DNA of 64,000 nt, from assembly GCA_028287305.1 (NCBI GenBank), contig JAQBPX010000032.1, forward strand, positions 1 through 64,000. The letters run 5' to 3'. The position numbers and the translations under genes are program-made. The notes under the pieces were generated by a model. The model was not told the origin of the DNA. It did no database searches and saw only the letters and a list, made by a program, of their open reading frames with translations. Positions 2,187 through 60,633 of the stretch are shown here, piece by piece (the stretch's first letter is position 1; each line of letters starts with the position of its first letter). The stretch is from Gemmatimonadota bacterium (GTDB lineage: Bacteria > Gemmatimonadota > Gemmatimonadetes > Gemmatimonadales > Gemmatimonadaceae).

Positions 2187-2352
2187 TACGGGTAAGTCTC
2201 CGGTGGCCTGCGAACAGCGATGAGGGACGAAGCGCAGGGCGCGCGACACCTCACATGATAGGGACGTGTCCGGTTTTGTGCACGTCCCTTGTCGAGCCGT
2301 CGCAAGCGCATACAATCGCTCGCGAGGGGTACGTCCACAGCTTTCCAATCAT

Positions 2353-3543: not shown

Positions 3544-3557
3544 ACAGCCTGGCCAGA

Positions 3558-4007: not shown

Positions 4008-4065
4008 GCGATCCTCGATGGGATGACCGGAACAACATGACGCGAAAACGGCTGGGGCAACAGCC

Positions 4066-4716: not shown

Positions 4717-5252
4717 CACTCGCGCGAGGGCAGGGGGAGCGACCACGACAGCGAGTGCGACGCATGGTCGGCTGCGACCTGCGAGAAGCCCAGCCGCCTT
4801 GCGACCGCGATGCTCGGCGCATTGCGCGAGTCGCAGTGCAGCTCGACCAGTGAGAACCGGGGAATGGTGGCGGCGTGCGCAATCACGGCCTGCGCGGCTT
4901 CGTTCACGAAGCCCTGGCCGGCCGCATCGGCACGGAGCCAATAACCGATCTCCACGCGGTCGGCGCCGGGAAGCGGCACTCGGGCGGTGGCGTCGCGTGG
5001 AAAGAGCGCCACCTCGCCAATGAGTTGTGGCGCGTCGAGCGTGAACACCGCGAAGCGCCACTCGATGTCACGCGCGAAATTGTCGGCAAATCCAGCGAGC
5101 CGTTGCTCGAGCTCCGGAATGGGAGCCGGCGTCGCCACCCGCGCGGGAATCCACGGCGCGAGGCGATCGTGATTGGCCTCGAGTATCGGGAGGAGCTCTG
5201 CGGCGTCGGTCGGCAACCACGGGCGCAGGATCAGTCGCGCGGTACGAAGCAT
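4716..5252 (-). CDS. GNAT family N-acetyltransferase (RimJ/RimL type)
   Basis: The start MLRTARLILRPW at 5252 is the usual opening strand of RimJ/RimL-like acetyltransferases and gives 178 residues. The acetyl-CoA region is seen as EIGYWLRADAAGQGFVNEA, and the C-terminal strand as VELHCDSRNAPSIAVARRLG. The family transfers acetyl groups to protein N-termini or small amines; the substrate here is not predictable. It lies 11 bases after a small membrane protein gene and overlaps the DUF998-like gene by one base. Confidence 0.87.
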   Translation of the reverse strand: MLRTARLILRPWLPTDAAELLPILEANHDRLAPWIPARVATPAPIPELEQRLAGFADNFARDIEWRFAVFTLDAPQLIGEVALFPRDATARVPLPGADRVEIGYWLRADAAGQGFVNEAAQAVIAHAATIPRFSLVELHCDSRNAPSIAVARRLGFSQVAADHASHSLSWSLPLPSRE

Positions 5253-5263
5253 GGCCCAATATG

Positions 5264-5695
5264 TCAGGCCGCCCTCCTCCACGCATCGCCCGGCGTGCGG
5301 ACGAAGTTCGCCCACACGTACGGCCACGGAATCACGAGCAGGTCCACCACCGCGCCGATCGCCATCACCTTGAAGAGCTCCGCGGCGGAGGGGGTCCAGA
5401 GTCCGCCGGCCCTGAGGGCGGGGGCCACCGTCAAGAGCCAGGTCACCTTGTAGAAGAGCTGCATGAAGATCACCGGGAGCATCTTCAGCGGATAGCGCAC
5501 GCCGAGGAGGCTCAGCGTAGAGAGCGCCGCCCAGAAGGAGAACGCGACGCCGATGACCGGCGCCACCGGCTTGGCGGGGCTGAGGAGTGCGGGCCAGACG
5601 TCCATCGCGAGGAAGGCGAAGTTCGCGAGGTACATGGCTCGCAGGATGTACCTGCGCAGCGTGGTGACGCCGTCGTGCCGTGAAATGTCCGTCAT
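5264..5695 (-). CDS. Small integral membrane protein, 143 aa
   Basis: The protein has about four hydrophobic segments, with a conserved-looking YPLKMLPVIFMQLFYKVTW stretch in the middle and WPYVWANFV near the C-terminus. I do not recognise a named domain with certainty. It is first in a same-strand run with the GNAT and DUF998-like genes (11 and -1 base spacing). Its function is unknown. Confidence 0.75.
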   Translation of the reverse strand: MTDISRHDGVTTLRRYILRAMYLANFAFLAMDVWPALLSPAKPVAPVIGVAFSFWAALSTLSLLGVRYPLKMLPVIFMQLFYKVTWLLTVAPALRAGGLWTPSAAELFKVMAIGAVVDLLVIPWPYVWANFVRTPGDAWRRAA

Positions 5696-5751
5696 TGCGG
5701 CTCCCGTGGGTTCCTATTGGATACCCATACGTTGCCGCCCCGGCGGGGGTT

Positions 5752-6144
5752 TCAGGGCCCCAGCAGGTCCCAGCGATTACCCTCGATATCGAGGAATATG
5801 GCCACCTGGCCGTAGGCTTCGCTTCGCGGAGCGCTGACGAACGTCACGCCGGCCGCGGTGAGTCGATCGTACGTCGCCGTGAAGTCATCCACGCGCAGGA
5901 AGAATCCGACGCGGCCAGCGAACTGCTCGCCGACGAGCGCTTCCTGCCGCTCACCGTCCGCTCGGGCGAGCAGCATGCCGGTGACCGCGCCCACGGGGCG
6001 CACCACCACCCATCGCTTCGGCCGTCCATCGTTCGTCAGCGATGGCACGTCCTCCACGAGCTCGAACTGCAGCACATTCACGAAGAAGTCGATCGCGCGA
6101 TCGTAATCGCGCACGACGAGCGCCACGAGGTGCAGGTGGGACAT
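5752..6144 (-). CDS. VOC (glyoxalase/bleomycin resistance) family protein
   Basis: The 130 residues contain two beta-alpha-beta-beta-beta modules: MSHLHLVALVVRDYDRAIDFF at the start, then FFLRVDDFTATYDRLTAAGV and FLDIEGNRWDLLGP in the second half. VOC proteins bind metals and act as lyases, dioxygenases or antibiotic-binding proteins. The usual His near the N-terminus (HLHLVAL) and the Glu in DIEGNRWDL are present, so metal binding is plausible. The substrate is unknown. It is one of four VOC genes in the window. Confidence 0.85.
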   Translation of the reverse strand: MSHLHLVALVVRDYDRAIDFFVNVLQFELVEDVPSLTNDGRPKRWVVVRPVGAVTGMLLARADGERQEALVGEQFAGRVGFFLRVDDFTATYDRLTAAGVTFVSAPRSEAYGQVAIFLDIEGNRWDLLGP

Positions 6145-6261
6145 CAGGGCTCCGTGAGGGGTGCATCGATGAGCGTGCGCGCATCCCGCCAGCCGTGCGC
6201 GCAGCGGCCGGTGAAGACGCGATGAGGCTTTAAAAGTCGGGCGGTCCGTTTCGCGCCCCGC

Positions 6262-8157
6262 TCACGGCACGACGGGGGGTCGAATCACGCGCATAGCGTT
6301 GCGGCGAATCCCGTGAATGGAGCCCGGACCTTCGGCTACGTACGCAACATCGCAATGCGAGACTGGGTCTTCGAGGTAGCTGCCTTTCGCGACGGGAAGT
6401 CGCCGATCGCTACGCCACTCCAGCGCTAGGTCGGAATTGAAGAACGCCGGCCGCAGCGAGTCAACCAGCGCGAACAGATGGCTGCAGCCGGGCCTCCCCG
6501 CGATCGCCTCGACATCGCCGAGCAGGCGCCACCGAATTGGTCTGCTCGCACTTGCGAAGACGCGTCCGTGCTCTCGCACTACCAGAAATCGACCCAGCGT
6601 GGCGACCTGCTCGATTCGGGTATCGTAATCATGAAGCCGCTGAAGCCCTTGTTCACTTGGCGTCGGGATCGGCTCCCAACTGACGCCGGAATCGATGGTA
6701 CGCCAGAACGCGCGATTTCCTCGGCGGAGACTCGACGCGACGTATGCCACGGTCGCCGATTCCCGGTGCATCAGCGTTACGTCCTGAAGTGTCTTTGGCA
6801 CCGGCCGCGCCCTCCACGACCTGCCTGAGTCGGAGCTTTGGTAAAACAGCTCGGACTGGTCCTCGCGGCTGCGCGCGAGTATCCAGATCGAAGACCCAAC
6901 TGCCTGCATGGCGTCGACGTCGCTTGCGCCCTCAAGAGCGACCGATGTCCAGGAGCGGCCGGCATTCTCGGTCCTATAGAGAACAGGGGCGCCGCTGGTG
7001 GGAAACCGTCCGCCGAGACCTACGAGCAGAACGTCCGGTCCGACGAAGGCCATCTGGACGCCGATCCTCAGCTCGTCTGCGAGCACCGGACCATCGTCGC
7101 CCCCCAGTACCCGCCGCCACGCGCCGCCCAGGGAATCCGTGACGAAGAGTCCTCCACTGGCGAGCCAAAGTCGCCCGTCAGGCGATACGGCTAGCTCTGG
7201 CTGCCAGCGGCTGTCTGGAACCTGGCCCTCGGGAACTGATCCAGCCTCGTCGCCAGCTCGACGACTCTCAGTCTTCGGCGCGGTCAACGCATCCACGTTC
7301 GAAGCCGAATCCGGGGGTCCAGTTCGCGTCATGACGAATTGACCACCACTACCACAACAGAATGCGTTCAGTTGCCATGTGCCACGGATCGTGTCGCCAC
7401 GAATGCGGCCACTCAGCGATAGGGATCCGTGCGACATGCGCGGTATGAAAGTGAGCAGCACGCTGTCGGCCTTCGGAATGCTCGCCTCGACCTCATGGAG
7501 CAAGTCCGGACCTCCCGCTACAATCGTGGTGCTCACGTCGTGCGCGACGGGCCCGCCGAAGAAGGGGGTGAAGTCCACGTGATGCAGGCCGCGCACGACG
7601 GAGACCAGGGAGTCGACATTGTCGCCGCGTTGAGCGGCCAGATAGCGAGACCCGAGATTCACCGCGCCCACCACCTCGCGCTGCAATCCTCCCGAAGGAG
7701 TTTTCTCCGCAGTTGCCAACCTCAGCGCGATCCGCCACGTGCCACGAAGATCGCAGCAAGGCGGAATCTCCCGCACGAGGCGAATCTCGCGATTGACGAG
7801 CTGGCCAGTTGCGCCGTGCACGACGGTCACGAGTCGTCGGTAGCCCGGACGAAGGAAGGAGAGAGTCTCCGACTCTTGAGTGAGGTCGCGAATGCACAAC
7901 CATCCCGTGGAGTCCGTCTCCTTCATGGTGAGGTTCATCTCAGCCTTTACATTCGTCACGGCCGTGCCCGTCACGGAGTCGGTCACTCTCGCCGCAATCG
8001 CCCACGCCGTCTCGATAGGGCGACACACGGGAGCAGTGGCCGTGCGTCTCGTGCAACTCGCGAGTATCGCGAGGAGTGGGAGGAATACGAAGAGTCCCCC
8101 GATGAAGAGGTCAGGCCTGCGGTGACGAGAAAGACCCGGAAGCCGGCTCACCGGCAA
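6262..8157 (-). CDS. Large lipoprotein with BNR/YCF48-like repeats
   Basis: The start is a TTG at 8157 (GAGG about nine bases upstream) or a GTG at 8151. The 631-residue product begins with a basic N-terminus, a hydrophobic stretch and LASC, a lipobox at about residue 35. Residues ~50-130 look like a carboxypeptidase-regulatory beta-sandwich (ARVTDSVTGTAVTNVKAEM). The second half has repeated sialidase-type strands, such as YRTENAGRSWTSVALEG and YQSSDSGRSWRARPVP, so a beta-propeller is likely. It is expected at the cell surface or periplasm. No catalytic residues are recognised and its role is unknown. GC-skewed codon use is normal, and no neighbour suggests a pathway. Confidence 0.78.
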   Translation of the reverse strand: MPVSRLPGLSRHRRPDLFIGGLFVFLPLLAILASCTRRTATAPVCRPIETAWAIAARVTDSVTGTAVTNVKAEMNLTMKETDSTGWLCIRDLTQESETLSFLRPGYRRLVTVVHGATGQLVNREIRLVREIPPCCDLRGTWRIALRLATAEKTPSGGLQREVVGAVNLGSRYLAAQRGDNVDSLVSVVRGLHHVDFTPFFGGPVAHDVSTTIVAGGPDLLHEVEASIPKADSVLLTFIPRMSHGSLSLSGRIRGDTIRGTWQLNAFCCGSGGQFVMTRTGPPDSASNVDALTAPKTESRRAGDEAGSVPEGQVPDSRWQPELAVSPDGRLWLASGGLFVTDSLGGAWRRVLGGDDGPVLADELRIGVQMAFVGPDVLLVGLGGRFPTSGAPVLYRTENAGRSWTSVALEGASDVDAMQAVGSSIWILARSREDQSELFYQSSDSGRSWRARPVPKTLQDVTLMHRESATVAYVASSLRRGNRAFWRTIDSGVSWEPIPTPSEQGLQRLHDYDTRIEQVATLGRFLVVREHGRVFASASRPIRWRLLGDVEAIAGRPGCSHLFALVDSLRPAFFNSDLALEWRSDRRLPVAKGSYLEDPVSHCDVAYVAEGPGSIHGIRRNAMRVIRPPVVP

Positions 8158-8170
8158 TTCCCGCGCACCC

Positions 8171-8539
8171 TCACAGCCTGCTGAACCCCGCCTTCCTCAC
8201 CATCACCGGCGGCGACATGTCGCCGAGCGCGGCGCGCACGCGCTCGTCGGGCGCACCGTACAGCGTCATCCGCTCCGGCGCGAGCACGGTGAAGAAGCGC
8301 TCCATGAAGCGCTGCCCGAACGTCGCGAGATGGATCATCGCGGCATCGGAGTCGCGGTAGCGCTCCCACAGGTGGCAGCGCCGGCCATCGTCGCCCAGGT
8401 AGTACTCGTACTCGAGCGTGCCGGGCTCATTCTGCTCGGTGGCCTCCACCATCTCGGCAATCAGCGCGTCGAAGGCGGCGCGCTGGCCGTCGATCACGGC
8501 CAGCTCAAACATCCAGGCAACGTGCGTGGCTTTCTTCAT
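8171..8539 (-). CDS. Antibiotic biosynthesis monooxygenase (ABM) domain protein
   Basis: The ATG at 8539 gives 122 residues; a TTG five codons earlier is an alternative. The ferredoxin-like ABM fold is suggested by WMFELAVIDGQRAAFDALIAE and by EPGTLEYEYYLGDDG followed by an aromatic-rich HLWERYRDSDA. Members include quinol monooxygenases and heme-degrading enzymes, but many are of unknown function. The gene starts 4 bases after the S9 peptidase stop, so it may be read through from the GntR operon, though nothing ties it to that operon functionally. Confidence 0.75.
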   Translation of the reverse strand: MKKATHVAWMFELAVIDGQRAAFDALIAEMVEATEQNEPGTLEYEYYLGDDGRRCHLWERYRDSDAAMIHLATFGQRFMERFFTVLAPERMTLYGAPDERVRAALGDMSPPVMVRKAGFSRL

Positions 8540-8543
8540 GGTA

Positions 8544-10580
8544 TCAGCGCGCAATGGGGAGTTGGTGAGCCATGTCGAATCTCAGGTTTCGTTGCATGAA
8601 AGCCTGCAGATCCGGCGACGCCGGCGCCAGACCGCCACCCAGGTGCCGGTGCGCCGCCAGCTCGATCATATAGAGGCTCGCCTCCGTTCCCAATGGCGTC
8701 GTGGGACCGTGCCCTCCCTCCGGGTCGATCAACACGCTCACCGCCTTGCCGGCCCGCCGCACCTCGCTCACATACTTCACGATGCTCGCGAGGGGCACGT
8801 GATCGTCCCGCTCGCCAGCCCAGACGTAGGCGGGCGCCTCGAGGCTGCGCACTCCTGCCAGTGGCGACTCGCGCGCCATTTTCGCGCGCCATGCAGCATC
8901 CCTGTACGGAAATCCCAGCTGCGGAAACTGCAGCGATAGCGGCGCGCCCTCCGGATGCAGCGCGTCGCTGTCATGCTCGGCCTGCCACTGCTTGATCCAC
9001 CCGTAATCAGTGGGCGGCGCGCCGGCGAACGCGAATCGAAAGCGCGCCGGATGATGCGTGATCGCCAGTAGGCTCGCATAGCCGCCAAACGACATCCCCA
9101 TTACCGCCTGCCGCGCGCGATCACCAATTCCCTCCGCGAGCAGGAAGTCCATTCCGTCGACGAGGTCCGATAGCACGCGACCATCGCCCACGTCGCCCTT
9201 CGCAGCGAGCACGTAGCTGAGCCCGTATCCGGTCGAGACCCGGAAGTTCGGGACGAACACGGCGTAACCGCGATTCACGAGCAGCTGCATGCTGCCTTCG
9301 TACTGGTCATAGGTGCGCGTCACCGGCCCACCGTGCAGCCAGGCAACCAGCGGCGCCGTGGCGGCGTCGACACCGCTCGGCAGCAGCACGTATCCATGGA
9401 GCAGCATTCCGTCGCGAGCGCGGTACGCCACGGGATGCATGGCGGCGCCGAGCGCGGGCGCGCGCGTGGTTGCGTGTTCGCGCGCGAATAGCGGTACCAG
9501 CTGCCCGCGATCCGGTCGGTAGAGGTAGTAGCGGTCGATTGCGACGTCGGCCTCCTGCGCGCGGACCAGCAACAGCGTTCCATCCCGCGACGCCGAGAGC
9601 TGCAGGTTGGCAGCGGGCAACCTGCGCTCGAGCGCGGCCACGACCGCGCGATCTGTGCTGTCATTGCCGACCCAGCGGCGTCGTCCATCATGAAACGAGA
9701 TGGCCGTCCAGTTCTCTCTCTCGGCGCTCCAGAGGATCTCGTCTGCGTCAGCCATCGCCGCCGGGTCGCGCTGAATGGTCTCCCACTTGCCGCTCCCCGA
9801 CGAAAAGCGTCGCAGTGCGAGCTTGTCTTCACCATGCTGCGAGAGCACCCACACCGCACGCTGTGCTTCGCTGAACCCCACCAGGCGGCACTCCTCGATG
9901 CCCGCGCATCGCATCAGCTCGCGCGCCTTTCCATCCTGATGTTGCCTGATCGCCGTTTCGTAGCGCGGGCCGTCCCACGCGGCTGTGTACGCCAGCTCTC
10001 CGTTCGCGTAAAGCAGCGCGCTCCGCAACGGCAGCGCAGCATCCAGCAGCAGTCGCGCGGTGCCGGCGGCATTCACCGCCAAGTAGCGATGGCGCCCGTC
10101 CACCTTCTCGTGAATCACCGCAACGCCAGGGGCTCGCGCGTCCACCATCCACAGGGACTGCGACCGCCGGCTGTCCCACTTGTAGGCGCGCCTCGCTACG
10201 AGCGTCGAGGCCTCGACCACGGCCAGCCCCTGGTCGTCAGCGAGCCACAGTCGCCGCCCATCACCCGACCATGCAGTCTGCGCTCGCTGAAGGCCCCAGG
10301 CGACTCGTTGCTGCGCGCCGGTGGCTACGTCCTGCAGGACCAGCTCCGCGCCACGCTCGCTTCGACGAAGGAACGAAACCCGGCTGCCATCTGGCGAGAG
10401 GCGCACGTCGACCAGCTCGGCTCGCGCGAGGAAGTGCTCCCGCGGCAGCATCGGTGCGCGCGGCTGCTGCGAGGCCAGTGCCTTCGCCTTCTGCAGGGCC
10501 TGTCGGGTTGCCGAGACCGGATCGAGCGAAGCCGTGGATGCGCCGAGCAGTGCGACGAGTGAAATGATGACGGACTTCAG
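8544..10580 (-). CDS. Secreted prolyl-oligopeptidase (S9) family peptidase
   Basis: Alpha/beta-hydrolase peptidase of about 678 residues. GMSFGGY (Ser about 497), GERDDHV (Asp about 592) and EGGHGP (His about 624) make the triad, and the N-terminal ~400 residues look like the S9 beta-propeller. No ATG or GTG fits the N-terminus. The best start is a CTG at 10580 that overlaps the permease stop as CTGA, has GAGGGG just upstream, and begins a good signal peptide (KSVIISLVALLGASTAS). A further 92-codon upstream frame runs through the permease gene and is discarded. Placement last in a GntR-ABC-permease operon suggests an exported peptidase working with the transporter; substrates are unknown. Confidence 0.88.
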   Translation of the reverse strand: MKSVIISLVALLGASTASLDPVSATRQALQKAKALASQQPRAPMLPREHFLARAELVDVRLSPDGSRVSFLRRSERGAELVLQDVATGAQQRVAWGLQRAQTAWSGDGRRLWLADDQGLAVVEASTLVARRAYKWDSRRSQSLWMVDARAPGVAVIHEKVDGRHRYLAVNAAGTARLLLDAALPLRSALLYANGELAYTAAWDGPRYETAIRQHQDGKARELMRCAGIEECRLVGFSEAQRAVWVLSQHGEDKLALRRFSSGSGKWETIQRDPAAMADADEILWSAERENWTAISFHDGRRRWVGNDSTDRAVVAALERRLPAANLQLSASRDGTLLLVRAQEADVAIDRYYLYRPDRGQLVPLFAREHATTRAPALGAAMHPVAYRARDGMLLHGYVLLPSGVDAATAPLVAWLHGGPVTRTYDQYEGSMQLLVNRGYAVFVPNFRVSTGYGLSYVLAAKGDVGDGRVLSDLVDGMDFLLAEGIGDRARQAVMGMSFGGYASLLAITHHPARFRFAFAGAPPTDYGWIKQWQAEHDSDALHPEGAPLSLQFPQLGFPYRDAAWRAKMARESPLAGVRSLEAPAYVWAGERDDHVPLASIVKYVSEVRRAGKAVSVLIDPEGGHGPTTPLGTEASLYMIELAAHRHLGGGLAPASPDLQAFMQRNLRFDMAHQLPIAR

Positions 10581-12391
10581 CGGCCCCTCACACGTGGCTC
10601 GAGGCAGAGCATGCTGAGGAAGGCCGGCACTCCGAGCAGTGCGCAGCTCGCGAGCCACAGGCGGCGCCGGGACGCACTGATCGTGGTGCCGCGGAGCCAG
10701 GCCCATGCGCCGCCGAACGAGGCCAGCATCAACACGAGCGCCAGGATCCGGAAGAGCGGCGCGCGGGGCAGGGGGTCGAAGCGCGGTGGTTGCGTGAGGC
10801 CCGTGTCGAGCAGGTCGGGCACGTGGGCGAGCGCGTAAAGCGACGGTGACACCCACCAGCTCGCGACGGGCACGTTGGATGTGCCCGCCGCAGAGACGTG
10901 ATAGTCGTGGATTTCATGACGCTCGGCCACCACGGTCGGCTTCCCGTCGGAGCCGATGAACACCACCTGCTGCCACGGGTCCGTGAGCGACTCGAAGCCG
11001 TCGAACTCGCGCACCTCGGAGTAGAAGAGCGACACCAGCCACCCATCGAGCAACTCGACCACGATCACTTCGACCGGCGCGGGCATCCCCGACGCAAGCG
11101 AGAGCTGCCAGTCGAGCGTTGGCGGTGCGAACGCTGAGATCGCCTCGCGATCGGGACGGTAGGCGAGCAGTCTCCTATTCGTCTCGATCATCACGTGATC
11201 GAGTGCGCGCACGGGCCGGCCGACGAACCACTCGCCTTGGGGCAGCTGGATCATCTGATGCTGGCGCTGTTGCTCCGCATCCACCGTGTACAGCATCGAG
11301 CGCGATATCCCGATCGCCGGCACCTCGTGGAAGCGCGCCTTTGAGCCCATGCCCTCGGTGCCCCACCAGCCATGCGAGGCGCCAGTGCGGGGATCGCGGC
11401 CGCGAAACTGCATGCGGTCATGACTGAACGTCCACTTGATGTTGCGCTTCTCGTCCCACCAGGGCTGCGCGAGGTTGCCCAGCTGGTTGCGAACTGGGAA
11501 CCGCGTGACGTCGGACTCGACTCCCGCCAGCTTGAGGAGTGGCAGCTGGTCGCGCCAGCCCGCGGCGCGCGGGTCCTGACTCGCCTTCAGTCCCTCGGAG
11601 ATGATGTCCGTGGCGACGCTTCGCATCGCGGCGCCGACGTCGACGTCCTTGTCGGTCGCAAGCACCGTGCGTCCGGGACCACGACCGACCAAGTCGACCA
11701 GGGCGATTCCCATCTTGCTGCCCTGGAATACGAGCAAAAAGAACGCGAGCTGGAGCGGCAGCGCGGTGAGCAGCAGCACGCCGTGACGCGCAATCGGCGC
11801 ATTCCAGTTGGCCCTGAAGCTGTGCCGCGCGACGAACAAGAGCCATGCGAGGCACGCAGTCACGGGAAGCAGAAGCCACCACACTGACGCGAGATGCAGT
11901 GAGAGCATCAACGGCGCGAGCAGAACTGCCACTGCGATCTTGCTGCGACTGGTGCACGCGTGTGCGCCGGCAAGCCAGGCCATCATCGCGAAGGCCATGA
12001 CGTGAATGAGCGTCACGTAGTGGCGAACGTCCACCACCTGCGAGGTGATGGCGTGCGTTGCGACGAGGAAGACGAGCAGCGGGGCGAAGATCGCCACGCC
12101 GAGCAGCGCGAGCGCTGAGAGTGCCAGCGCTGCAAAGATGCGAGAGGGAGCCAGCGGACGATGGATCAGCCACAGCCAGCGGCTCACCTGCCGGTAGCTG
12201 CCGACCTGCACGAGCGACAGGACGAGCCCGAGCAGCATGTACACCACGAGCATGGCGGCCTGGTCCCCGTAGGGCATCTGCGTGACGTCCATGGCCCGCG
12301 ACATCAGCAGCAGCGCCAGCGCGTGCGCTACGCCCGCGCCCAGCGCGAGCTTGCGGAGTCGCCTCCATTCCGATCGAATCAGGTCGTTCAT
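10577..12391 (-). CDS. ABC transporter permease with large extracytoplasmic domain
   Basis: The 604-residue product has about seven membrane helices in residues 15-222, then a soluble stretch of roughly 320 residues (about 225-545), then two more helices at the C-terminus. The soluble block contains WWDEKRNIKWTFSHDRMQF and later beta-rich segments, and I recognise no domain in it. The ATG at 12391 overlaps the ATPase stop as ATGA, and the gene's own stop overlaps the peptidase start as CTGA. It is thus the membrane partner of the ATPase. The layout (helices, big external domain, helices) is unlike the small YtrC/YtrD permeases usually found with YtrA-type regulators. Confidence 0.82.
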   Translation of the reverse strand: MNDLIRSEWRRLRKLALGAGVAHALALLLMSRAMDVTQMPYGDQAAMLVVYMLLGLVLSLVQVGSYRQVSRWLWLIHRPLAPSRIFAALALSALALLGVAIFAPLLVFLVATHAITSQVVDVRHYVTLIHVMAFAMMAWLAGAHACTSRSKIAVAVLLAPLMLSLHLASVWWLLLPVTACLAWLLFVARHSFRANWNAPIARHGVLLLTALPLQLAFFLLVFQGSKMGIALVDLVGRGPGRTVLATDKDVDVGAAMRSVATDIISEGLKASQDPRAAGWRDQLPLLKLAGVESDVTRFPVRNQLGNLAQPWWDEKRNIKWTFSHDRMQFRGRDPRTGASHGWWGTEGMGSKARFHEVPAIGISRSMLYTVDAEQQRQHQMIQLPQGEWFVGRPVRALDHVMIETNRRLLAYRPDREAISAFAPPTLDWQLSLASGMPAPVEVIVVELLDGWLVSLFYSEVREFDGFESLTDPWQQVVFIGSDGKPTVVAERHEIHDYHVSAAGTSNVPVASWWVSPSLYALAHVPDLLDTGLTQPPRFDPLPRAPLFRILALVLMLASFGGAWAWLRGTTISASRRRLWLASCALLGVPAFLSMLCLEPRVRGR

Positions 12392-28687: not shown

Positions 28688-29278
28688 CTACCTCCGAATC
28701 TCGTAACGAAGCTCGACCATCCCGCTCCTGTATGCCTTCGACTCTGCCAGGTGCAGCGCGACGTCGCGGTCGAGCGAGCCGAAGAACCGGATCCCCTCGC
28801 CGATCAGCACGGGCAGGATCGAATATCGCACCTCGTCCACCAGTCCGTGGCGCAGGCACTCGGCCACGAGCTCCGCACCGCCCACGACCCAGATGGACGG
28901 GAAGGACGGCCGCAGTCGCTCGTTCACGAACTGTGCAAGGTCACCGGAATGAAACTCGACCGTGTCACGCGTGCGCGCCAGCTCGCGATTCGTGAGGACG
29001 AAGGTGGGCTTGTCGCCATAGGCCCATCCCAGTCCCCTGGACTGGAAGGCCAGTGCGGTCTCGTACGTACGCGAGCCCATGACGTAGCAATCGATGGTGC
29101 CGAGGAATTCCTCGATGAACGCCGGGTCCATGGTTGCGCCGTCCACGAATTCGTCGGCGGTCTCCATCCAGTCGACGCTGCCGTCATTGCGCGTGATGAA
29201 GCCGTCGAGGCTCGCGGCCATGTGGATCGTGACTCGGGACGCGGCGCTCGACGCCTGGTGAATGGCGCGGGTCAGCAC
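28688..29278 (-). CDS. Dihydrofolate reductase-like (RibD C-terminal) family protein (copy 1)
   Basis: The 196-residue frame starts with a GTG at 29278. VTIHMAASLDGFITRNDGSV is the family's opening, YVMGSRTYE the cofactor-loop region, IWVVGGAELVAECL the NADPH-binding glycine loop and DEVRYSILPVLIGEGIRFF the C-terminal strand. These stand-alone relatives of RibD and DHFR are probable NADPH reductases, and few have a known substrate. Its start codon shares one base with the upstream gene's stop, and it is followed by GyrI-like and GNAT genes. Confidence 0.9.
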   Translation of the reverse strand: MLTRAIHQASSAASRVTIHMAASLDGFITRNDGSVDWMETADEFVDGATMDPAFIEEFLGTIDCYVMGSRTYETALAFQSRGLGWAYGDKPTFVLTNRELARTRDTVEFHSGDLAQFVNERLRPSFPSIWVVGGAELVAECLRHGLVDEVRYSILPVLIGEGIRFFGSLDRDVALHLAESKAYRSGMVELRYEIRR

Positions 29279-35322: not shown

Positions 35323-35874
35323 CTACCCCCTCGGCACATACCGCATCGCCACCGCTCCTGAACCGTACTCGATCCGGTCCACGAGCTTCAGGTCGACCAG
35401 CTTCGACAGCCCCGCGAACAGCGTCGGACCATGGCCGACGATCCGGGGATGCACCACGAACTCGTACTCGTCGATCAGCCCCAGCTCAGCCAGCGCCAGC
35501 GGCAGGGTCAGGCCGCCGGTGAACAGCCCCTCGCCTGGCTCCTCCTTCAGCTTCTGAACCTCGTCACCCAGGTCGCCTCGCACGAGCTCCGCATTCCAGT
35601 CGACGCGGTCCAGCGTGCTGGACACAACGTACTTCTTCTTCGCGTCGATCGTGCGGGCGAACGGTTCCATCCATTCCGGCCTCGATCCCGGTGGCGCCGG
35701 ATGCCGCCAGCCAGCCTCCATCATCTGGTATGTCACCCGGCCGAAGAGCAGGGCATCGGCGCGCCGGATGCTCTCGGCCGCGCGCCGGTGCAGCTCCTCG
35801 TCCGGGATCATCGCCCGATGATCGCAGCAACCGTCGAGCGTGACGTTGATGGAATAGCGAAGTGGTCGGGTCAC
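35323..35874 (-). CDS. Dihydrofolate reductase-like family protein (copy 2)
   Basis: The GTG at 35874 gives 183 residues: LRYSINVTLDGCCDHRAMIP, ADALLFGRVTYQMMEAGW, GLFTGGLTLPLALAELGLID and EYEFVVHPRIVGHGPTLFA. This is the RibD C-terminal / DHFR-like fold, with TGG as the cofactor loop. The start overlaps the stop of the next DHFR-like gene as GTGA, so two paralogues are coupled. They might act as a heterodimer, since the family forms dimers, but that is inference. Confidence 0.9.
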   Translation of the reverse strand: MTRPLRYSINVTLDGCCDHRAMIPDEELHRRAAESIRRADALLFGRVTYQMMEAGWRHPAPPGSRPEWMEPFARTIDAKKKYVVSSTLDRVDWNAELVRGDLGDEVQKLKEEPGEGLFTGGLTLPLALAELGLIDEYEFVVHPRIVGHGPTLFAGLSKLVDLKLVDRIEYGSGAVAMRYVPRG

Positions 35875-36473
35875 GGCTGCGTCCTCCGCACCGGATACCG
35901 CAGGTGCGTGACGCCGACGCCCTGAATCACCGCCGGGTTGCCGAGGACCGACGGCGTGCCGGCGAGACGATCGAACAACCGCACGCCGGAGCCGAGCAGC
36001 ACCGATGCGACATCGATGCTCATCTCGTCGAGGAGGCCGGCGTTGAGCAGCTGCTGGATGGTGTCGGCGCCGTGCACCCCGACTGACTTGTCGCCCGCCG
36101 CCGCCTTCGCCTGCTTCACGGCGCTCTCGAGGCCGTCGGTCACGAAGTGAACCGTCGAGCCGGGGCGCGGCCAGCCATCGGGAACAGAGTGCGTCACCAC
36201 GAACGCAGGACCCCACGCATGATTTCCCCCCCAGCCTTCGGCGACCTCGAAGGTTCGCCGCCCGGTGAGCACCGCCCCGAGCTCGAACCAGAGTGCGCGC
36301 AGGTGCTCGGCGCTCGGTTCGGACACCCTGAAGGTCATGGGGTCCGACCCTCCCGTGTCGAACTGGACGTCGCCCGAGTTCATGTACCAGTCGAACACGA
36401 CGCCGACGCCATCGTGGTCGTCGGCGACGTATCCGTCGAGTGACATGGTCATGATCGCTACCAGCTTCGACAT
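35871..36473 (-). CDS. Dihydrofolate reductase-like family protein (copy 3)
   Basis: The 200-residue product starts at the ATG at 36473: MSKLVAIMTMSLDGYVADDH, TGRRTFEVAEGWGG, VHGADTIQQLLNAGLLDEMS and IDVASVLLGSGVRLFDRL. It is a RibD C-terminal-type reductase fold. It is coupled to copy 2 by GTGA and divergent from the LuxR-type regulator gene (83 bases between), which may control it. Confidence 0.9.
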   Translation of the reverse strand: MSKLVAIMTMSLDGYVADDHDGVGVVFDWYMNSGDVQFDTGGSDPMTFRVSEPSAEHLRALWFELGAVLTGRRTFEVAEGWGGNHAWGPAFVVTHSVPDGWPRPGSTVHFVTDGLESAVKQAKAAAGDKSVGVHGADTIQQLLNAGLLDEMSIDVASVLLGSGVRLFDRLAGTPSVLGNPAVIQGVGVTHLRYPVRRTQP

Positions 36474-43629: not shown

Positions 43630-44274
43630 CTACCGCTTCCGGATGAAGAGGTGCAGCGCGCGCTCTCCCTGCACCTGGCGATCGACGCCGTACCCGAGCT
43701 CACGCAGGTCGAGTCCGTGGAAGATGTGCTCACCCTTGCCGAGCAGCACCGGACTCAGTGCCAGATGCAGCTCGTCGACCAGCTGCGCCTGCAGGTACTG
43801 CCGAACCGTGGACACGCCACCGCCGATCCGAATCTGCTTGTCCCCCGCGGCGTCGCGCGCCTGCTCGAGCGCGGCGTGAATGCCGCCGGTCACGAAGCGG
43901 AACTCCGTTCCGCCGGCCATCTGGATCGGGTCACGCGCGTGATGCGTGAGCACGAATGTCGGGACGTGATACGGAGGGTCGTCACCCCACCAGCCCTTCC
44001 AGTTCTCGTCTGGCCACGGCCCACGAATGGGGCCGAACATGTTGCGGCCCATGATCCACGCGCCGTTGCCGGTCGCTCCCGCCTGCGCGACGTCATTGTC
44101 GACGCCGGTCTCGCCCTCGCCCCCGCCGTGCATGCTCTGGAATGCGTGAGTGGGGAAGAACCATCCCATCATGTCCATGGCCTTCACGCCAAGGGGGTTC
44201 TCCAGGCTCTGGTCGGCTCCAGCGCCGTATCCATCGAGCGAAATGCCGAAGCACGATACGCGAACTTCTGCCAT
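43630..44274 (-). CDS. Dihydrofolate reductase-like family protein (copy 4)
   Basis: The 214-residue protein reads VSCFGISLDGYGAGADQSLE, AWIMGRNMFGPIRGPW, RIGGGVSTVRQYLQAQLVDE and LHLALSPVLLGKGEHIFHGL. It is the RibD C-terminal fold with an insertion near residues 30-60 (a histidine- and glycine-rich loop, FQSMHGGGEGETG). It is preceded by TauE/SafE with 2 bases between and directly followed by the dehydratase, so it sits inside that operon. Confidence 0.9.
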   Translation of the reverse strand: MAEVRVSCFGISLDGYGAGADQSLENPLGVKAMDMMGWFFPTHAFQSMHGGGEGETGVDNDVAQAGATGNGAWIMGRNMFGPIRGPWPDENWKGWWGDDPPYHVPTFVLTHHARDPIQMAGGTEFRFVTGGIHAALEQARDAAGDKQIRIGGGVSTVRQYLQAQLVDELHLALSPVLLGKGEHIFHGLDLRELGYGVDRQVQGERALHLFIRKR

Positions 44275-44276
44275 GT

Positions 44277-45203
44277 CTAGGTCTCAGTGGCCACTGGGGG
44301 CGTTACGATCACGACGGGCGATGCGCCCGGGCGAGCGGCAGATCGAAGCATCATCCCCGCCGCGTACGTCACCACCCCGACTACGGCCCAGCGCAGCACG
44401 AGCAGGGGAAGCGACTTGACCAGGAACGCGGCGACGAGGACCGCCGGAATGCCGGCGAGCGTGAGTGCGATGGCGGGTCGGGGGCTGTACCGCGCCTTGC
44501 GGATGAAGGTCATGCTCCCGACCATTGCCACCACGGCGCTCGCTCCCATGATCACCGGGAACGCGGCGTGCGGGTCGAGGCCGAGCATGGTGAGGAGGAT
44601 CAGGCAGGGCGCGAAGTTGCCGATGCCGATCATCAGCAGCCCGCCGAAGACGAATGCGCCCGTGGAGGCGATCACGAGGCGTGTGGTGGGCAGGCCGATT
44701 GCCGTGCCGCCGCTGGGGAACACGCCGAGCGTGCTCATGGTCATGAAAGTCGCCGCGAGCAGGAGCCCGATGCCCATGCCGACCTGGATCGGCCTGCGTG
44801 GCAGCGACGTGACCACGCGCGCGCCGAGCCATCCACCGAGCACCGTCGCGACCATGACGCACATGAGGAGCGTGGCGTCGGCGTTCACGATCGTGAGGAA
44901 GATCAGCCCCTGCGCCGCGGCGGGCAGGGAGAGTCCCACGAGGATGGTGCCCGGCAGGTTCTCGTCGGGCACGATGCCGAAGGTCTTGAGGAGGGTCGTG
45001 GTAGTCGCGAACGAGCCGATGCCCAATGTGTCGAAGAAGGCGACGACGAAGCCGATCCCGAGCTCGAGGGCGCTCGGACGGAGGGTGCCGTCGCCACTCG
45101 TGGAACGCGCGCGACGGACGCTGAGCGCCCAGAGCAGCGCAAACACGAGCGCGGTCAACGCGATCAGCGTAAGCAGTGCGTTGCGAATGCCGAGGTGTGG
45201 CAT
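44277..45203 (-). CDS. TauE/SafE family membrane permease
   Basis: An AGGAGG nine bases before the ATG at 45203 favours this start over a GTG seven codons upstream; the product has 308 residues. It has about eight membrane helices, with ELGIGFVVAFFDTLGIGSFA, LGGWLGARVVTSLP and FVFGGLLMIGIGNFAPCLIL. The family moves sulfite, sulfoacetate or other organic anions across the inner membrane. The gene follows the TPR-secretin gene by 27 bases and precedes DHFR-like and dehydratase genes, all on one strand. Confidence 0.9.
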   Translation of the reverse strand: MPHLGIRNALLTLIALTALVFALLWALSVRRARSTSGDGTLRPSALELGIGFVVAFFDTLGIGSFATTTTLLKTFGIVPDENLPGTILVGLSLPAAAQGLIFLTIVNADATLLMCVMVATVLGGWLGARVVTSLPRRPIQVGMGIGLLLAATFMTMSTLGVFPSGGTAIGLPTTRLVIASTGAFVFGGLLMIGIGNFAPCLILLTMLGLDPHAAFPVIMGASAVVAMVGSMTFIRKARYSPRPAIALTLAGIPAVLVAAFLVKSLPLLVLRWAVVGVVTYAAGMMLRSAARPGASPVVIVTPPVATET

Positions 45204-45230
45204 TGAGGTGCTCCTCCTGTTCACGTACGC

Positions 45231-47060
45231 CTAGAAGTACAGCAGGCCTCGGAGCTGGTTGCCGATGCGGCGCGCAAACTCGTCACGAGACTGCCGTTGC
45301 GCGGCGACGACGTCCTCCCGCGAGAGCAGCTTCCGGAAGGTGTTGGTCGGGAGCGTCCGCGTGAGCTGGCGCAGGATGGTGATGCGCGCGTCGAGCTCGG
45401 GGAAGTACTCCTTGAGCTGCGTGAGGCCCGTGGTCTCGATGCTCCCCTCGCCGGGCTTCGATGTCGATTGCGTCTGGCCCACGCGCCGCGGCGTGAGCAC
45501 CATCAGCACCGAGGTCTCGAACAGCTGCTCCGACTTGCCCGAGAAGAGGTATTGCAGGAGGGGGATTTCCTGCAACACCGGCACGCCCGCCTTGATCGAG
45601 CGCGACTCGTGCTCGGACAACCCGCTGAGGATCACCGTCTGGTCGAAGTCCGCTACGACCGCCGTGGTCACGCGCTGGATGGTCTGCCGCACGGGCGTGT
45701 TGGAGCCCGGCACGAAGTTGGTGGCCACGAAGCTGCGCGAGGCGCTGACCGACAGCAGCACGGTGTTGTCGTCGATGAAGGTGGGCGTGATGGCGATCTC
45801 CGTCCCGATGCTCTTGTCGATCAGGGTTCCCGGTGCGAATCCGCCCGCGGAGCTCACCGGAATGGAGAGCTGCTCGCCCACGAAGTAGTTCGCCGGCTGG
45901 CCATCGAGCGCAACGAGCAGGGGACGCGCGAGCACGTCGGAGCGGTCGTAGCCGGTGTTCGCGATGTCCAGCGAGTAGAGCACTTCCGGAATCTTCAGCG
46001 AGCGCAGGATCGTCGAGCTCACGGACTGCGAGGTCACCCCATCGTTCCCCTCGGCGCGAGTGATGGCGCGGTCGTTGGAGGCGGCGAAGTTCGCCTTGAG
46101 GCCCGTGAGCAGGTTGACGCCGCGGTTCTCCGACTGGATCTCCTGCGTGCGGATCAGCATCAGGTCGACCTGCACCATGCGCGCCCTCGCGCCCGCGGGA
46201 AGCTGCGGCAGCGGTTGCATCATGGTGGACTTGGCCTCGGTCTCCCCGCTCGTGAGGAAGGGCGAGCGCGTGGCGGCTGGAAATCCCGACATGCTGTCGA
46301 TGACGGCGCCCGGCAGGCGCGCGGCAACGGCTCCCGGGGTGGCAGCACTCACCCGGGACATCCGCGATTGCTCCGCGCGCCAGTCGCCCAGTCGCTGGCG
46401 CAGCTCGGCCACAGCGCCGGCGTCGCCGGCGACGCTCGCAAACTGCTCGCTCCACTGCGTGGCCTGCGCGCTGTCACCGGCCGCCGCCGCGATCATCGCG
46501 GCATTGTGCAGGAGCCCGGCGTCGTGGGGCGACGCCACCAGCGCGCGCTCCACCACCGCCTGCGCTTCCGCGAACATGGCGCTGAGGTACAGCGCGCGAG
46601 CGAGCTCGCCGAGGATTGCGGGCTCACGACGATTGAGGACGGCTGCGCGCGAGAGGTGCTCGATGCTCGCCGCGTAGCGTCCGGCCGCGATCTCGAGGAC
46701 GCCGAGGCGGTAGGCGGCCAGCCAGCTGCGCTCGTCGAAGAGGAGTGCCTGCTGGTAGCCGACCTGCGCGAGCTCACGCTTGGGGATGTCGCCGTCGAGC
46801 GCATCGGCCTCGAAGGTGGCGGCCAGTGCGAGGTGCGCCCTGGCATTGCGTGGGTCGTACTTGAGGACTTGCCGGAAATCGCGGCGCGCGTCGTCCACCT
46901 TGCCGAGTTGCAGCGCGCTCACGCCGTGCCGAAGCAGGTCGTCCTGCGGTGCCGGGGACGCTTCCGTGCCCACCGGCCGACCGGACCCGGCGCGACTGCA
47001 GGCAGCGAGCGACAGCGCGGCAGCGAGCGCGACCGGATGGATCGAGAGTCTGGAATTCAT
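45231..47060 (-). CDS. TPR-secretin lipoprotein (orphan GspD/PilQ-like channel domain)
   Basis: 609 residues. LAAALSLAAC is a lipobox (Cys about 21). Residues ~40-210 are TPRs. From about residue 290 the secretin channel domain follows: MVQVDLMLIRTQEIQSENRG, LARPLLVALDGQPANYFVGE, GTEIAITPTFIDDNTVLLSV, VVADFDQTVILSGLSEHESR, and the hallmark PVLQEIPLLQYLFSG near 490-505. Secretins form outer-membrane pores for type II/III secretion, pili or phage. The usual N0/N1 ring domains are absent, replaced by TPRs, and no secretion ATPase, pilin or inner-membrane platform gene is near. It lies between a membrane-anchored AraC gene and TauE/SafE, with a barrel-like protein gene further upstream. Confidence 0.88.
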   Translation of the reverse strand: MNSRLSIHPVALAAALSLAACSRAGSGRPVGTEASPAPQDDLLRHGVSALQLGKVDDARRDFRQVLKYDPRNARAHLALAATFEADALDGDIPKRELAQVGYQQALLFDERSWLAAYRLGVLEIAAGRYAASIEHLSRAAVLNRREPAILGELARALYLSAMFAEAQAVVERALVASPHDAGLLHNAAMIAAAAGDSAQATQWSEQFASVAGDAGAVAELRQRLGDWRAEQSRMSRVSAATPGAVAARLPGAVIDSMSGFPAATRSPFLTSGETEAKSTMMQPLPQLPAGARARMVQVDLMLIRTQEIQSENRGVNLLTGLKANFAASNDRAITRAEGNDGVTSQSVSSTILRSLKIPEVLYSLDIANTGYDRSDVLARPLLVALDGQPANYFVGEQLSIPVSSAGGFAPGTLIDKSIGTEIAITPTFIDDNTVLLSVSASRSFVATNFVPGSNTPVRQTIQRVTTAVVADFDQTVILSGLSEHESRSIKAGVPVLQEIPLLQYLFSGKSEQLFETSVLMVLTPRRVGQTQSTSKPGEGSIETTGLTQLKEYFPELDARITILRQLTRTLPTNTFRKLLSREDVVAAQRQSRDEFARRIGNQLRGLLYF

Positions 47061-47127
47061 TTATGACGCAATGTTGGACCGCGGAGGGTGGCGTCGCAAG
47101 CAGCGCGGGCAGGCAAGTGAAGAAGTT

Positions 47128-48303
47128 CTAGGCCCCGATCGCCTGGCGGAACGCCGACGGTGTCTGGCTCGTGTGCTTCTTGAATGCCTGGTTGAACGTC
47201 GACTTGCTCGCGAAGCCCGCGTCGAGTGCGAGCGCCAGCACCTTGAGCCGCGAGGCGTCGCCACCGGCAATCCGGCGCTGGACCTCGCGCACCCGGTAGC
47301 CGTTCACGAAGTCGTGGAAGGTCTGGCCGACCTGTGCGTTGAGGACCTCGGAAAGCTTGTGCGGCGTGGTGTCGAGGCGCGATGAAAGGTCGGCGAGCGT
47401 GAGCTCGCTGTCCTTCCACGGCTCCCCCGTATCCATGATGTGAAGCAGCGCGGCCTGGAGCCGCGCGGCTTCGACACCGCTCATTCCTGAACGACCGTAG
47501 CGGGGAGGCTCGACGTCGGGTGTCGTATCGACCTCCACGGCACGCGGCGCCGCTCGCATTACGGGGAATTCAGACGTGACGTATCTGAAGACCTCCGGCT
47601 GCCTGAGCCCCATGTAGCCGATCGCATACACGAGCAGCGCGATGGCGAGCGAGACGTGTTCTTCCCGGATGTGCACCGGGGCGTTCGACACGAGCACGCC
47701 GGCCGCCAGGATCCAGATGGCCATGGCGGAAGCGGACAGCCATCCCAGCCAGGCGAGGTTGACGCTGCCGAGGTTGGAGTAGCTGTCCAGGATGTGCTGG
47801 CGGTGACGTCGCAGGAAGAGCAGCGTGGCGACGGAATAGCCGAGCCCCGACGCGTACTTCGTGAGGTCGAAGATCGCGATGTGCGCGGGCTCGCCGTGTG
47901 ACGTCCATGCGTCGAGTACGGCGAGCTTCTCCGGGCCACTCAACAGGATGTAGGGAAGGGCGACGAGCAGTGCGATCGCCGGGAGGACGAAGTGCGCGAG
48001 ATCGCTGCTGCGAAAGCGCCACGAACGATCGCCGGCTGCGCGCGCGTACAGGAACACGAATGGGCCGAACAGCCACGTGACTGGGTACGAGATGCCGAAG
48101 AAGTACGGGTACGCGCGAAAGAGTGGCGTCGAGTAGTAGACCGTCGAGGCCAGGTACAGCGTGCACGCGGCCACGAGCCCTGACAGGAGGCGGTTGGCAG
48201 TCCGGTTTCTTCGCTGCACGAAGAGCACACCGGCGAGCAGCACGCCGTGCAGGGCGCCGAGTGCGCTTGCGAGCTGGATCCAGTCGAGGGTGAGGCTCGC
48301 CAT
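47128..48303 (-). CDS. Membrane-anchored AraC-family regulator
   Basis: The 391-residue protein has about seven hydrophobic helices in residues 1-235, then a linker. The AraC DNA-binding domain follows: SELTLADLSSRLDTTPHKLS, then FHDFVNGYRVREVQRRIAGG, then VLALALDAGFASKSTFNQAF and KKHTSQTPSAFRQ. It presumably senses an envelope or extracellular signal and acts on nearby DNA. The ATG at 48303 sits inside the 3' arm of an 11-base-pair hairpin in the message, so translation may be controlled by structure. Neighbours are the barrel-like protein (upstream) and the secretin lipoprotein (downstream). Confidence 0.9.
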   Translation of the reverse strand: MASLTLDWIQLASALGALHGVLLAGVLFVQRRNRTANRLLSGLVAACTLYLASTVYYSTPLFRAYPYFFGISYPVTWLFGPFVFLYARAAGDRSWRFRSSDLAHFVLPAIALLVALPYILLSGPEKLAVLDAWTSHGEPAHIAIFDLTKYASGLGYSVATLLFLRRHRQHILDSYSNLGSVNLAWLGWLSASAMAIWILAAGVLVSNAPVHIREEHVSLAIALLVYAIGYMGLRQPEVFRYVTSEFPVMRAAPRAVEVDTTPDVEPPRYGRSGMSGVEAARLQAALLHIMDTGEPWKDSELTLADLSSRLDTTPHKLSEVLNAQVGQTFHDFVNGYRVREVQRRIAGGDASRLKVLALALDAGFASKSTFNQAFKKHTSQTPSAFRQAIGA

Positions 48304-48326
48304 GCCCGGAAGATACCGGGCATGGC
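48299..48326 (-). promoter_or_regulatory. Hairpin that covers the start codon of the AraC gene
   Basis: On the coding strand GCCATGCCCGG pairs with CCGGGCATGGC around a 6-base loop (TATCTT). The gene's ATG is in the second arm; the first arm carries another, out-of-frame ATG 20 bases upstream. The same element begins 26 bases after the barrel gene's stop, so it may also end that transcript. Confidence 0.6.
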
Positions 48327-48351
48327 GACCCCGGCCAGATCACGTCCCAGG

Positions 48352-49170
48352 CTACCGCCCGAAGCCCACCTTCAGCGAAATCGAGTTCACGCGCGCGGCA
48401 TTGTACTCGGCCGCAATCCGGGCGCCCGACAGGCGGAGCTCGACGCCCGCCATGGCCTGCGCACCCAGGGCGTGCTCGTCGTGAAGGTCGACAAGGGCAG
48501 ACTTCTCGTGGGAGCTCGAGATGTAGCTGGACACGCCAGCATACGGCGAGAGCACTGCCCAACGCGTGACGACGATCTGCCGGCTCGCCACCACGTCGGC
48601 GCCAAAGACCGTGAGCCCGAGGTCGGCCGGTCCGTACATCGACACTGCGCTTCCGCGAGCGGACGCGTTCCACTTTCCATCAGCACTCCGGGCGAAGTTG
48701 TGCTGGAGCTGCATGCCGGCGAACCCGTAGTTCGCGCCGGGGTTCTTGGTGAAGTACAGCCCGAGGTCGGTGCGGTCACTCAGGCCCGCGCGGAGCGTGA
48801 GGCCCGGGAACTTGAGCCCTTCGCCCTCGAACAGCCAGTGCGCCGAATCGGGGTGGACGAAGGTGTTGTTCCATGCGCCGTCATGGTCGTCGATGCCCGT
48901 GTCGTACTGCAGCACGGAGAGCTCGAACTTCCCTCGGCCCATCGGCTTGGCGCTGATGAGTGGGCGGAAGTAGGCGACGAGACCTCCCTCGCGCGTAAAC
49001 TGGCGCCACTCCGATTGCGTGAGGGAGGCATCGAGCTGGAAGGAGCATTCCTTCCAGCGCGGATTGATGTGGAGGTGCGGGTGATCGGTGGACTGCGCGG
49101 CGAGTGTGGTGCCGACCGGGGCGTTGATGATGGCGGCGGCCGCGATTGTGAACAGAAGTTTGCGAGTCAT
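48352..49170 (-). CDS. Probable outer-membrane beta-barrel protein, 272 aa
   Basis: The protein starts with a signal peptide (MTRKLLFTIAAAAIINAPVG, cleavage near LAAQS). Alternating aromatic strands follow (GLVAYFRPLISAKPMGRGKF, DRTDLGLYFTKNPGANYGF, VSPYAGVSSYISSSHEKS, IAAEYNAARVNSISLKVGFG), ending in GFGR, an aromatic-rich barrel-like end. No named porin family is recognised. It heads the same-strand run AraC, TPR-secretin, TauE/SafE. Its leader contains a 10-base inverted repeat and, further up, a perfect palindrome. Confidence 0.75.
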   Translation of the reverse strand: MTRKLLFTIAAAAIINAPVGTTLAAQSTDHPHLHINPRWKECSFQLDASLTQSEWRQFTREGGLVAYFRPLISAKPMGRGKFELSVLQYDTGIDDHDGAWNNTFVHPDSAHWLFEGEGLKFPGLTLRAGLSDRTDLGLYFTKNPGANYGFAGMQLQHNFARSADGKWNASARGSAVSMYGPADLGLTVFGADVVASRQIVVTRWAVLSPYAGVSSYISSSHEKSALVDLHDEHALGAQAMAGVELRLSGARIAAEYNAARVNSISLKVGFGR

Positions 49171-59976: not shown

Positions 59977-60633
59977 TCACTCGTGCCTAGGGCCCGAGTC
60001 GAAGATCGCGGTCTCCTGGCCCACTTCCACTTCACCGTACCTCAGGTTGCCCGCACGCTCGTACACGTGAAGTACGGCGCCAGTCGTGTTCGACTGTGTA
60101 TCGACAAGCCGGAGACCGCGCGGTTGCGTGCCAGCTCCGAAGAGGCGCTTGCCGGTACCGAGGACAACCGGGAATTGCCAGATACGCAGGGTGTCGACGA
60201 GGTCGTGCGCGAGGAGGGTCTGGAGAAGGTCGCAGCTTCCATGGACCTGAATCTCGCCCCCTTCCTGCGCCTTGAGCTCGGCGACCGCTGTTGCAACGTC
60301 GCCCTCTAGCAGGTGCGAATTGTTCCACGCGAGCGAGTCGACCGTTCGTGACGCGACGAACTTCGGCCGGGAGTTGAGCGCTGTCGCAATCTGGTCGCTC
60401 GGATCGGTGGAGTTCGGCCAGGAACCAGCGAAGATTTCGTATGTCCTGCGCCCGAGCAGGTAGGCGCCCGCGTGCGTGGTCCACTCCGTCATGATCTCGA
60501 GGAACTTCTCGTCGAAGTAGGGGACCAGCCAGCCACCGTGCTCGAAGCCACCGTCGCGGTCCTCGTCGGGGCCGCCAGGGGCCTGCATGACACCATCCAA
60601 TGTCGTGAACGTGCCCGCCACCAGCTTTCTCAT
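59977..60633 (-). CDS. Dihydrofolate reductase-like family protein (copy 5)
   Basis: The ATG at 60633 gives 218 residues: MRKLVAGTFTTLDGVMQAPG, GAYLLGRRTYEIFAGSWP, IQVHGSCDLLQTLLAHDLVD and TLRIWQFPVVLGTGKRLFGA. It is the RibD C-terminal fold with the LDG opening and a HGSxDLxQTL cofactor loop, like the annotated deaminase/reductase YyaP-type proteins. It is alone on its strand. Confidence 0.92.
   Translation of the reverse strand: MRKLVAGTFTTLDGVMQAPGGPDEDRDGGFEHGGWLVPYFDEKFLEIMTEWTTHAGAYLLGRRTYEIFAGSWPNSTDPSDQIATALNSRPKFVASRTVDSLAWNNSHLLEGDVATAVAELKAQEGGEIQVHGSCDLLQTLLAHDLVDTLRIWQFPVVLGTGKRLFGAGTQPRGLRLVDTQSNTTGAVLHVYERAGNLRYGEVEVGQETAIFDSGPRHE

Follow-up and report, generated by a model that had tools for sequence, protein, structure and literature searches.

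What might a secretin do when it stands outside the setting in which secretins are usually met? Secretins are usually viewed as the outer parts of large machines, needing a separate pilotin and inner-membrane docking rings. The question is raised by a gene on the minus strand (45231-47060) of the 64,000-nucleotide stretch of Gemmatimonadota bacterium contig JAQBPX010000032.1 analyzed here (the window). The gene, called as an open reading frame (ORF) and having full-length relatives elsewhere, encodes a 609-residue lipoprotein that joins tetratricopeptide repeats (TPRs) to a secretin domain, and which we refer to as the TPR-secretin. An earlier sequence-only reading had described it as an orphan secretin with TPRs in place of the N0/N1 ring domains, and had proposed that it forms one system with three neighboring genes. 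We consider it rather probable that in the TPR-secretin a lipid-anchored TPR pilotin of the TadD/PilF kind and a bare secretin are naturally fused, giving a self-piloting outer-membrane channel.

Domain architecture of the TPR-secretin

Judged by its sequence, the protein is composed of a lipid-anchor signal, a five-TPR domain, a secretin core without N-domains and a conserved C-terminal tail. The signal peptide (46998-47060, on the minus strand like all features of the gene) ends in the lipobox LAAC with acceptor Cys21 and Ser at +2, and this Cys is invariant in 17 of 17 members of the family described below. The TPR domain (residues 38-237; 46350-46949) is matched by several Pfam TPR families. 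The place where N0-N3 would be expected is taken by a variable linker (residues 238-292; 46185-46349) which has no N-domain match, is unconserved in the family alignment and is modeled with a predicted local distance difference test score (pLDDT) below 50. The secretin core (residues 293-526; 45483-46184) carries the family motif GVNLLTGL and is supported by profile comparisons; Pfam Secretin (PF00263) matches residues 372-525 with E=1.1e-26, at 93.9 bits against a curated cut-off of 27.5. The tail (residues 527-609; 45234-45482) ends in LLYF and is, from the family alignment, a candidate S-domain.

Both halves of the architecture in the sequence-only reading are borne out, the secretin domain in the C-terminal half as well as the TPRs with N0/N1 absent. 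No match to N0, STN or Secretin_N was found in the 609-residue protein at E<=0.5 (Pfam), whereas at least one N-type domain (AMIN, N0, STN, Secretin_N or T2SS-T3SS_pil_N) was detected at E<=0.1 in each of eight other secretins, drawn from the same genome searches as controls. It follows from this contrast that the TPR-secretin consists of TPRs and a secretin without detectable N-domains. The lipobox is located on the secretin itself, as in liposecretins of the HxcQ type, and the lipobox together with the modeled repeats corresponds to the lipobox and superhelix of five or six TPRs that mark the pilotins TadD, PilF and Tgl, both classes being defined by mechanism. Membership of a type II, type IV pilus (T4P) or type III secretion system (T3SS) secretin class was rejected, as scores fell far below the cut-offs: 63 bits against an equivalog cut-off of 351 for the GspD type II model (TIGR02517), 58.3 bits against a subfamily cut-off of 284 for the PilQ model (TIGR02515), with neither an N-domain nor pil genes among the scanned neighbors, and 33.5 bits against an equivalog cut-off of 750 for the Amuc_1098 model (NF042912), which covers only residues 455-523 here.

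In a structure model of the window protein, built from a two-row alignment, residues 38-237 form five TPRs from ten helices, with one more helix as a cap. This is the model's sole confident part, with ten-residue blocks over 41-230 at a mean pLDDT of 66-88. The helix count equals the one reported for TadD, which is described as 11 helices in five TPRs (in passages of PMC10499894). Fold comparison aligned the TPR part with PilW at Z 17.9 (root-mean-square deviation 3.2 over 189 residues) and with PilF at Z 17.0, the aligned spans being 189-191 residues. At E<=0.001 the NCBIfam PilW model matches 17 of 17 family members and the Tgl model 11 of 17, in all cases below the models' own cut-offs. A profile search with the secretin part ranked the solved RcpA third.

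The TPR-secretin family and its genomic partners

Within the phylum of the window, the full-length protein appears isolated. A single-protein search of 298 genomes returned only the window's genome at E<=1e-20, and a three-row profile matched 18 of 395 genomes at the same threshold, full-length only in the window's genome and confined to the secretin part in the other 17. Full-length relatives occur in an Elusimicrobia metagenome-assembled genome (MAG; locus L003) and its phylum, in 13 of 294 genomes with 15 copies (MAG included), and one is carried on a plasmid of Asticcacaulis sp. AND118 (L034). These phylum-wide searches scored only the three to four best candidates per genome, in genomes that are a sample of a larger group, and the initial contig scan for relatives used short patterns by which many relatives would be missed. 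A phage origin was considered and rejected, as a scan of viral contigs gave 57 pattern matches and zero relatives.

The 17 members have in common the lipobox Cys, the TPRs, the bare secretin and the C-terminal tail, and 47 alignment columns are invariant, that of the lipobox Cys included. Pfam Secretin and TPR matches were found in all 17, while N-domains were absent among the 25 families shown of the 28 that Pfam reported for them, and absent from the seven members scanned singly. Secretin motifs such as ARP, T..LxGL and GVPxLxxIP show little or no variation. The tail is kept throughout and ends mostly in aromatic residues (FLWY, FFWY, FLYY, LLYF), with LILP in the Asticcacaulis member. In a tree of 65 secretin-domain sequences, a single branch with support 100/99 separates the 17 TPR-secretins from 48 other secretins; the latter were taken from 51 candidate loci after removal of duplicate sequences and of loci that covered the domain insufficiently. 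The inner placements, including that of the window copy, are uncertain because the end branches are long.

In Elusimicrobia, the TPR-secretin gene has a partner. In all ten main-clade loci (L003/L089, L075-L083), its start lies in a 4-base overlap with the gene of a giant exported protein. Nine of these overlaps come from a simple codon-usage gene caller rather than from annotation; that of L003 comes from the ORF coordinates 1953-9839 and a chosen start at 9836, as the caller had set the TPR-secretin start at a more internal position. The L003 giant (1953-9839) has 2,628 residues and a ricin-type beta-trefoil lectin domain. The giants of all ten loci are of about 2,600 residues, contain repeated segments as well as a ricin-type lectin domain (a statement on the sugar-binding fold only), and form an uncharacterized Elusimicrobia family. 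The next gene encodes a trypsin-like protease in nine of the ten loci (one cut by a contig end), and the tenth contig ends at this point; three of the proteases were checked by Pfam, and one has PDZ domains.

Across the 294 genomes, the giant was found in 12, the TPR-secretin in 13 and both in 11 (Fisher p=3e-17, uncorrected for shared ancestry). The one genome with only the giant (G597) has it split across contig ends, with its neighbor out of view. The giant of G568 is a distant one, 28% identical over part of its length (E=1.7e-49), and is transcribed divergently. G564 and G573, the two genomes that have a TPR-secretin but lack a giant, fall into a second clade with different neighbors, including Cys-rich exported proteins.

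Other possible cargo was seen in the flanks of some loci. Related Cys-rich exported proteins are encoded divergently beside second-clade TPR-secretins (L087:9068-10675 and L088:301-1875). On the Asticcacaulis plasmid, three genes for exported proteins that have no Pfam match (6632-7282, 8981-10372 and 10413-12044) flank the TPR-secretin on both sides.

Proposed mechanism, precedents and alternatives

The channel, its docking and its cargo may be pictured as follows. The Lol pathway would carry the TPR-secretin to the inner leaflet of the outer membrane, and the TPR domain would act in cis as TadD, PilF or Tgl act in trans, perhaps by gripping, in its own subunit or in the adjacent one, either the C-terminal tail or the lip while this is still unfolded, until the ring inserts. 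A ring of about 12-16 subunits would form a gated outer-membrane channel and, having no ring domains to dock an inner-membrane platform, would receive substrates that are already periplasmic. In Elusimicrobia, the giant lectin-tailed protein, which would be co-translated, is the likely substrate. If true, such a fusion, lacking docking domains, would offer a compact means to probe the role of pilotins and to ask whether a secretin can work on its own, and in Elusimicrobia it points to a testable route by which a very large lectin protein, surface-bound or secreted, would be exported. A more far-reaching proposal, which we hold to be a real possibility if an unlikely one, is a hitherto undescribed minimal export pathway where the pilotin-secretin fusion works alone, with no ATPase, platform, pseudopilus or N-domains, and exports a dedicated Sec-exported giant which the neighboring trypsin-like protease trims or releases. 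Such a pathway would be the secretin-based counterpart of two-partner secretion, and the window copy a transplanted exporter with other cargo.

HxcQ differs from the TPR-secretin in being part of a type II system. It resembles it in the self-piloting which we propose here and which, by means of a lipid anchor, is ascribed to HxcQ in passages citing the original work. The fusion of TPRs to a secretin as such is not new because Amuc_1098, the PilQ of Akkermansia muciniphila, also has N-terminal TPRs and a C-terminal secretin domain in one polypeptide; passages of PMC4960237 liken its TPRs to pilotins and place it in a predicted type IV pilus setting. Unlike the TPR-secretin, it has 907 residues and is filed as a type IV pilus secretin (NF042912). 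For the Tad system, it is reported that the four C-terminal residues of RcpA bind the TPR groove of TadD and are essential for secretin formation (passages of PMC10499894). This pair likewise brings together a secretin core and a five-TPR lipoprotein, but as two proteins, and RcpA differs further in its VirB9-like N-domain and its tail of Leu-Ser-Asp (same passages). Tgl, PilF and PilW are modeled as holding the unfolded secretin lip (passages of PMC10653833), and PilQ with PilF/PilW or Tgl is alike in that a TPR lipoprotein aids secretin assembly; there, however, the pilotin is separate and PilQ retains AMIN and N domains (same passages). The rhizobial T3SS pair RhcC2-Y4yS also comprises a secretin and a TPR lipoprotein that affects the secretin level (passages of PMC4311626), but these are separate proteins inside a complete T3SS. 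The TPR-secretin family, its bare architecture and its coupling to a giant were not found in the searches made of the open-licence literature, which leaves subscription journals mostly uncovered.

Several results weigh against a pilotin-secretin fusion that forms a channel. The secretin half of the structure model has a pLDDT below 50 nearly throughout, with oligomer and docking not seen, and because this half has no confident model, we infer channel formation from the domain alone. In sequence or fold, the pilotins are equaled or surpassed by designed TPRs, YrrB, MamA and O-GlcNAc transferase. Because these generic TPRs tie with or outrank the pilotins, fold likeness is no proof of descent; the predicted TPR fold agrees with pilotins and equally well with generic TPRs, and does not single out a specifically pilotin-like character or pilotin ancestry. 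The window protein also scores far below the cut-offs of the pilotin models (PilW 45.7 bits vs 154, Tgl 25.3 vs 225), and its aromatic tail end differs from the Leu-Ser-Asp of RcpA; the Asticcacaulis member ends in LILP. The link between giant and secretin is drawn mostly from a single clade whose members are rather closely related, and in the window's genome neither a giant homologue (at E<=1e-5) nor a cargo was found. Finally, the base composition of the TPR-secretin gene does not stand out from its flanks. Recent transfer, as judged by composition, was therefore dropped for lack of a signal, and because of this the acquisition of the window copy is argued from its distribution. On that ground, the copy is probably a lone, acquired gene, a stray member of the family.

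The TPR-secretin might also serve the pilus or type II-like machinery of its genome as a second outlet in the outer membrane, with the TPRs docking inner-membrane parts instead of N0. TPRs can be adaptors, and the genome holds a pilMNOPQ-like run together with ten T2SSE matches, nine of them over the cut-off. The run, which from gene order, size and sequence appears to be pilM, N, O, P and Q with pilin-like genes upstream, is located on another contig and ends in a PilQ-like secretin of its own, the only other secretin in the genome; none of the T2SSE matches is on the contig of the TPR-secretin. As the sequence-only reading had noted for the surrounding 15 kb, secretion ATPase, platform and pilin families were absent among the 29 predicted genes scanned between 34,010 and 62,655, a scan that extended neither to the 30-34 kb region nor to several small ORFs. 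Since the Elusimicrobia gene is moreover coupled to an exported giant and not to machine genes, we find such an outlet function unlikely. A loss of pore function, leaving a TPR scaffold lipoprotein, would agree with the missing model of the secretin half and with its score of 94 bits, which is lower than the 136-175 bits of eight other secretins scanned. However, the secretin motifs are conserved across the family, and in the core the family profile aligns with the solved GspD, RcpA and PilQ, which makes such a loss quite improbable. A channel for uptake or leakage of polymers or small molecules, rather than for protein export, is harder still to credit: HofQ-type secretins take up DNA (per the NCBIfam model name) and the window's genome offers no cargo, but the strict coupling to an exported giant in the main clade argues against it.

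Least probable of all, to the point of being nearly dismissed, is the cooperation of four genes put forward in the sequence-only reading, in which a barrel protein (48352-49170), an envelope-sensing AraC regulator (47128-48303), the secretin channel and a TauE permease (44277-45224) act as one unit. The four genes do lie on the same strand with gaps of 48, 67 and 6 bases, in one genome. However, the AraC gene and the barrel-like gene are adjacent in three relatives (G005, G028 and G015; loci L102-L104; 53-65% identity) that have no TPR-secretin, only secretin-domain matches, and there the TauE homologues are on contigs other than that of the pair. None of the three neighbors was found by blastp clustering in the stretches fetched for the 16 other TPR-secretin loci, several of which have little flank on one side owing to contig ends. 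The same reading had named missing conservation of the neighbors as a result that would speak against it, and they are not conserved. Its observations are in sum partly confirmed and its interpretation partly supported. The neighbors are probably unrelated to the TPR-secretin, TauE/SafE functionally so, and from the comparison of loci the AraC gene probably belongs with the barrel-like gene and not with the secretin, which would have been placed beside an independent pair.

Neighboring genes in the window

The AraC-type regulator has a helix-turn-helix domain at residues 306-387 (Pfam E=5.4e-16), and its N-terminal half is hydrophobic, with four peaks above 1.6 preceding this domain. The barrel nature of its 272-residue neighbor was not upheld. 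This protein has a signal-peptide-like start and belongs to a conserved family, but it is barrel-like by eye only and has no assigned fold, as DUF6588 matches below its cut-off and a single-sequence model reached pLDDT 30. In a set of 59 genomes (the window's genome and relatives), homologues were found in eight for the AraC protein (E<=1e-12) and in six for the 272-residue protein (E<=1e-5), the window's genome included in both counts. The pair in G015 has its gene order reversed, the AraC gene occurs without its partner in G025 and G027, and the 272-residue gene does so in G010 and G014. The loci L102-L104 thus present a conserved two-gene module of an exported protein of the 272-residue type and a membrane AraC regulator. 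One further locus, L106 (G027:C333), contains a mirror-image duplication, likely an assembly artefact, which doubles the AraC matches of G027.

TauE/SafE homologues were found in 21 of the 59 genomes. The family assignment of the window's gene holds (Pfam E=3.7e-14), though the gene lies outside the span from 45231 to 49170 to which the sequence-only reading had referred it. It is the first gene of a closely spaced series that includes RibD_C and PALP genes. Scans for tRNA and Rfam families in the window gave no matches. Several RibD_C-type (dihydrofolate-reductase-like) genes are present in the window, one recognized by eye (28688-29278) and four confirmed by Pfam (35323-35811, 35871-36473, 43630-44274 and 59977-60633).

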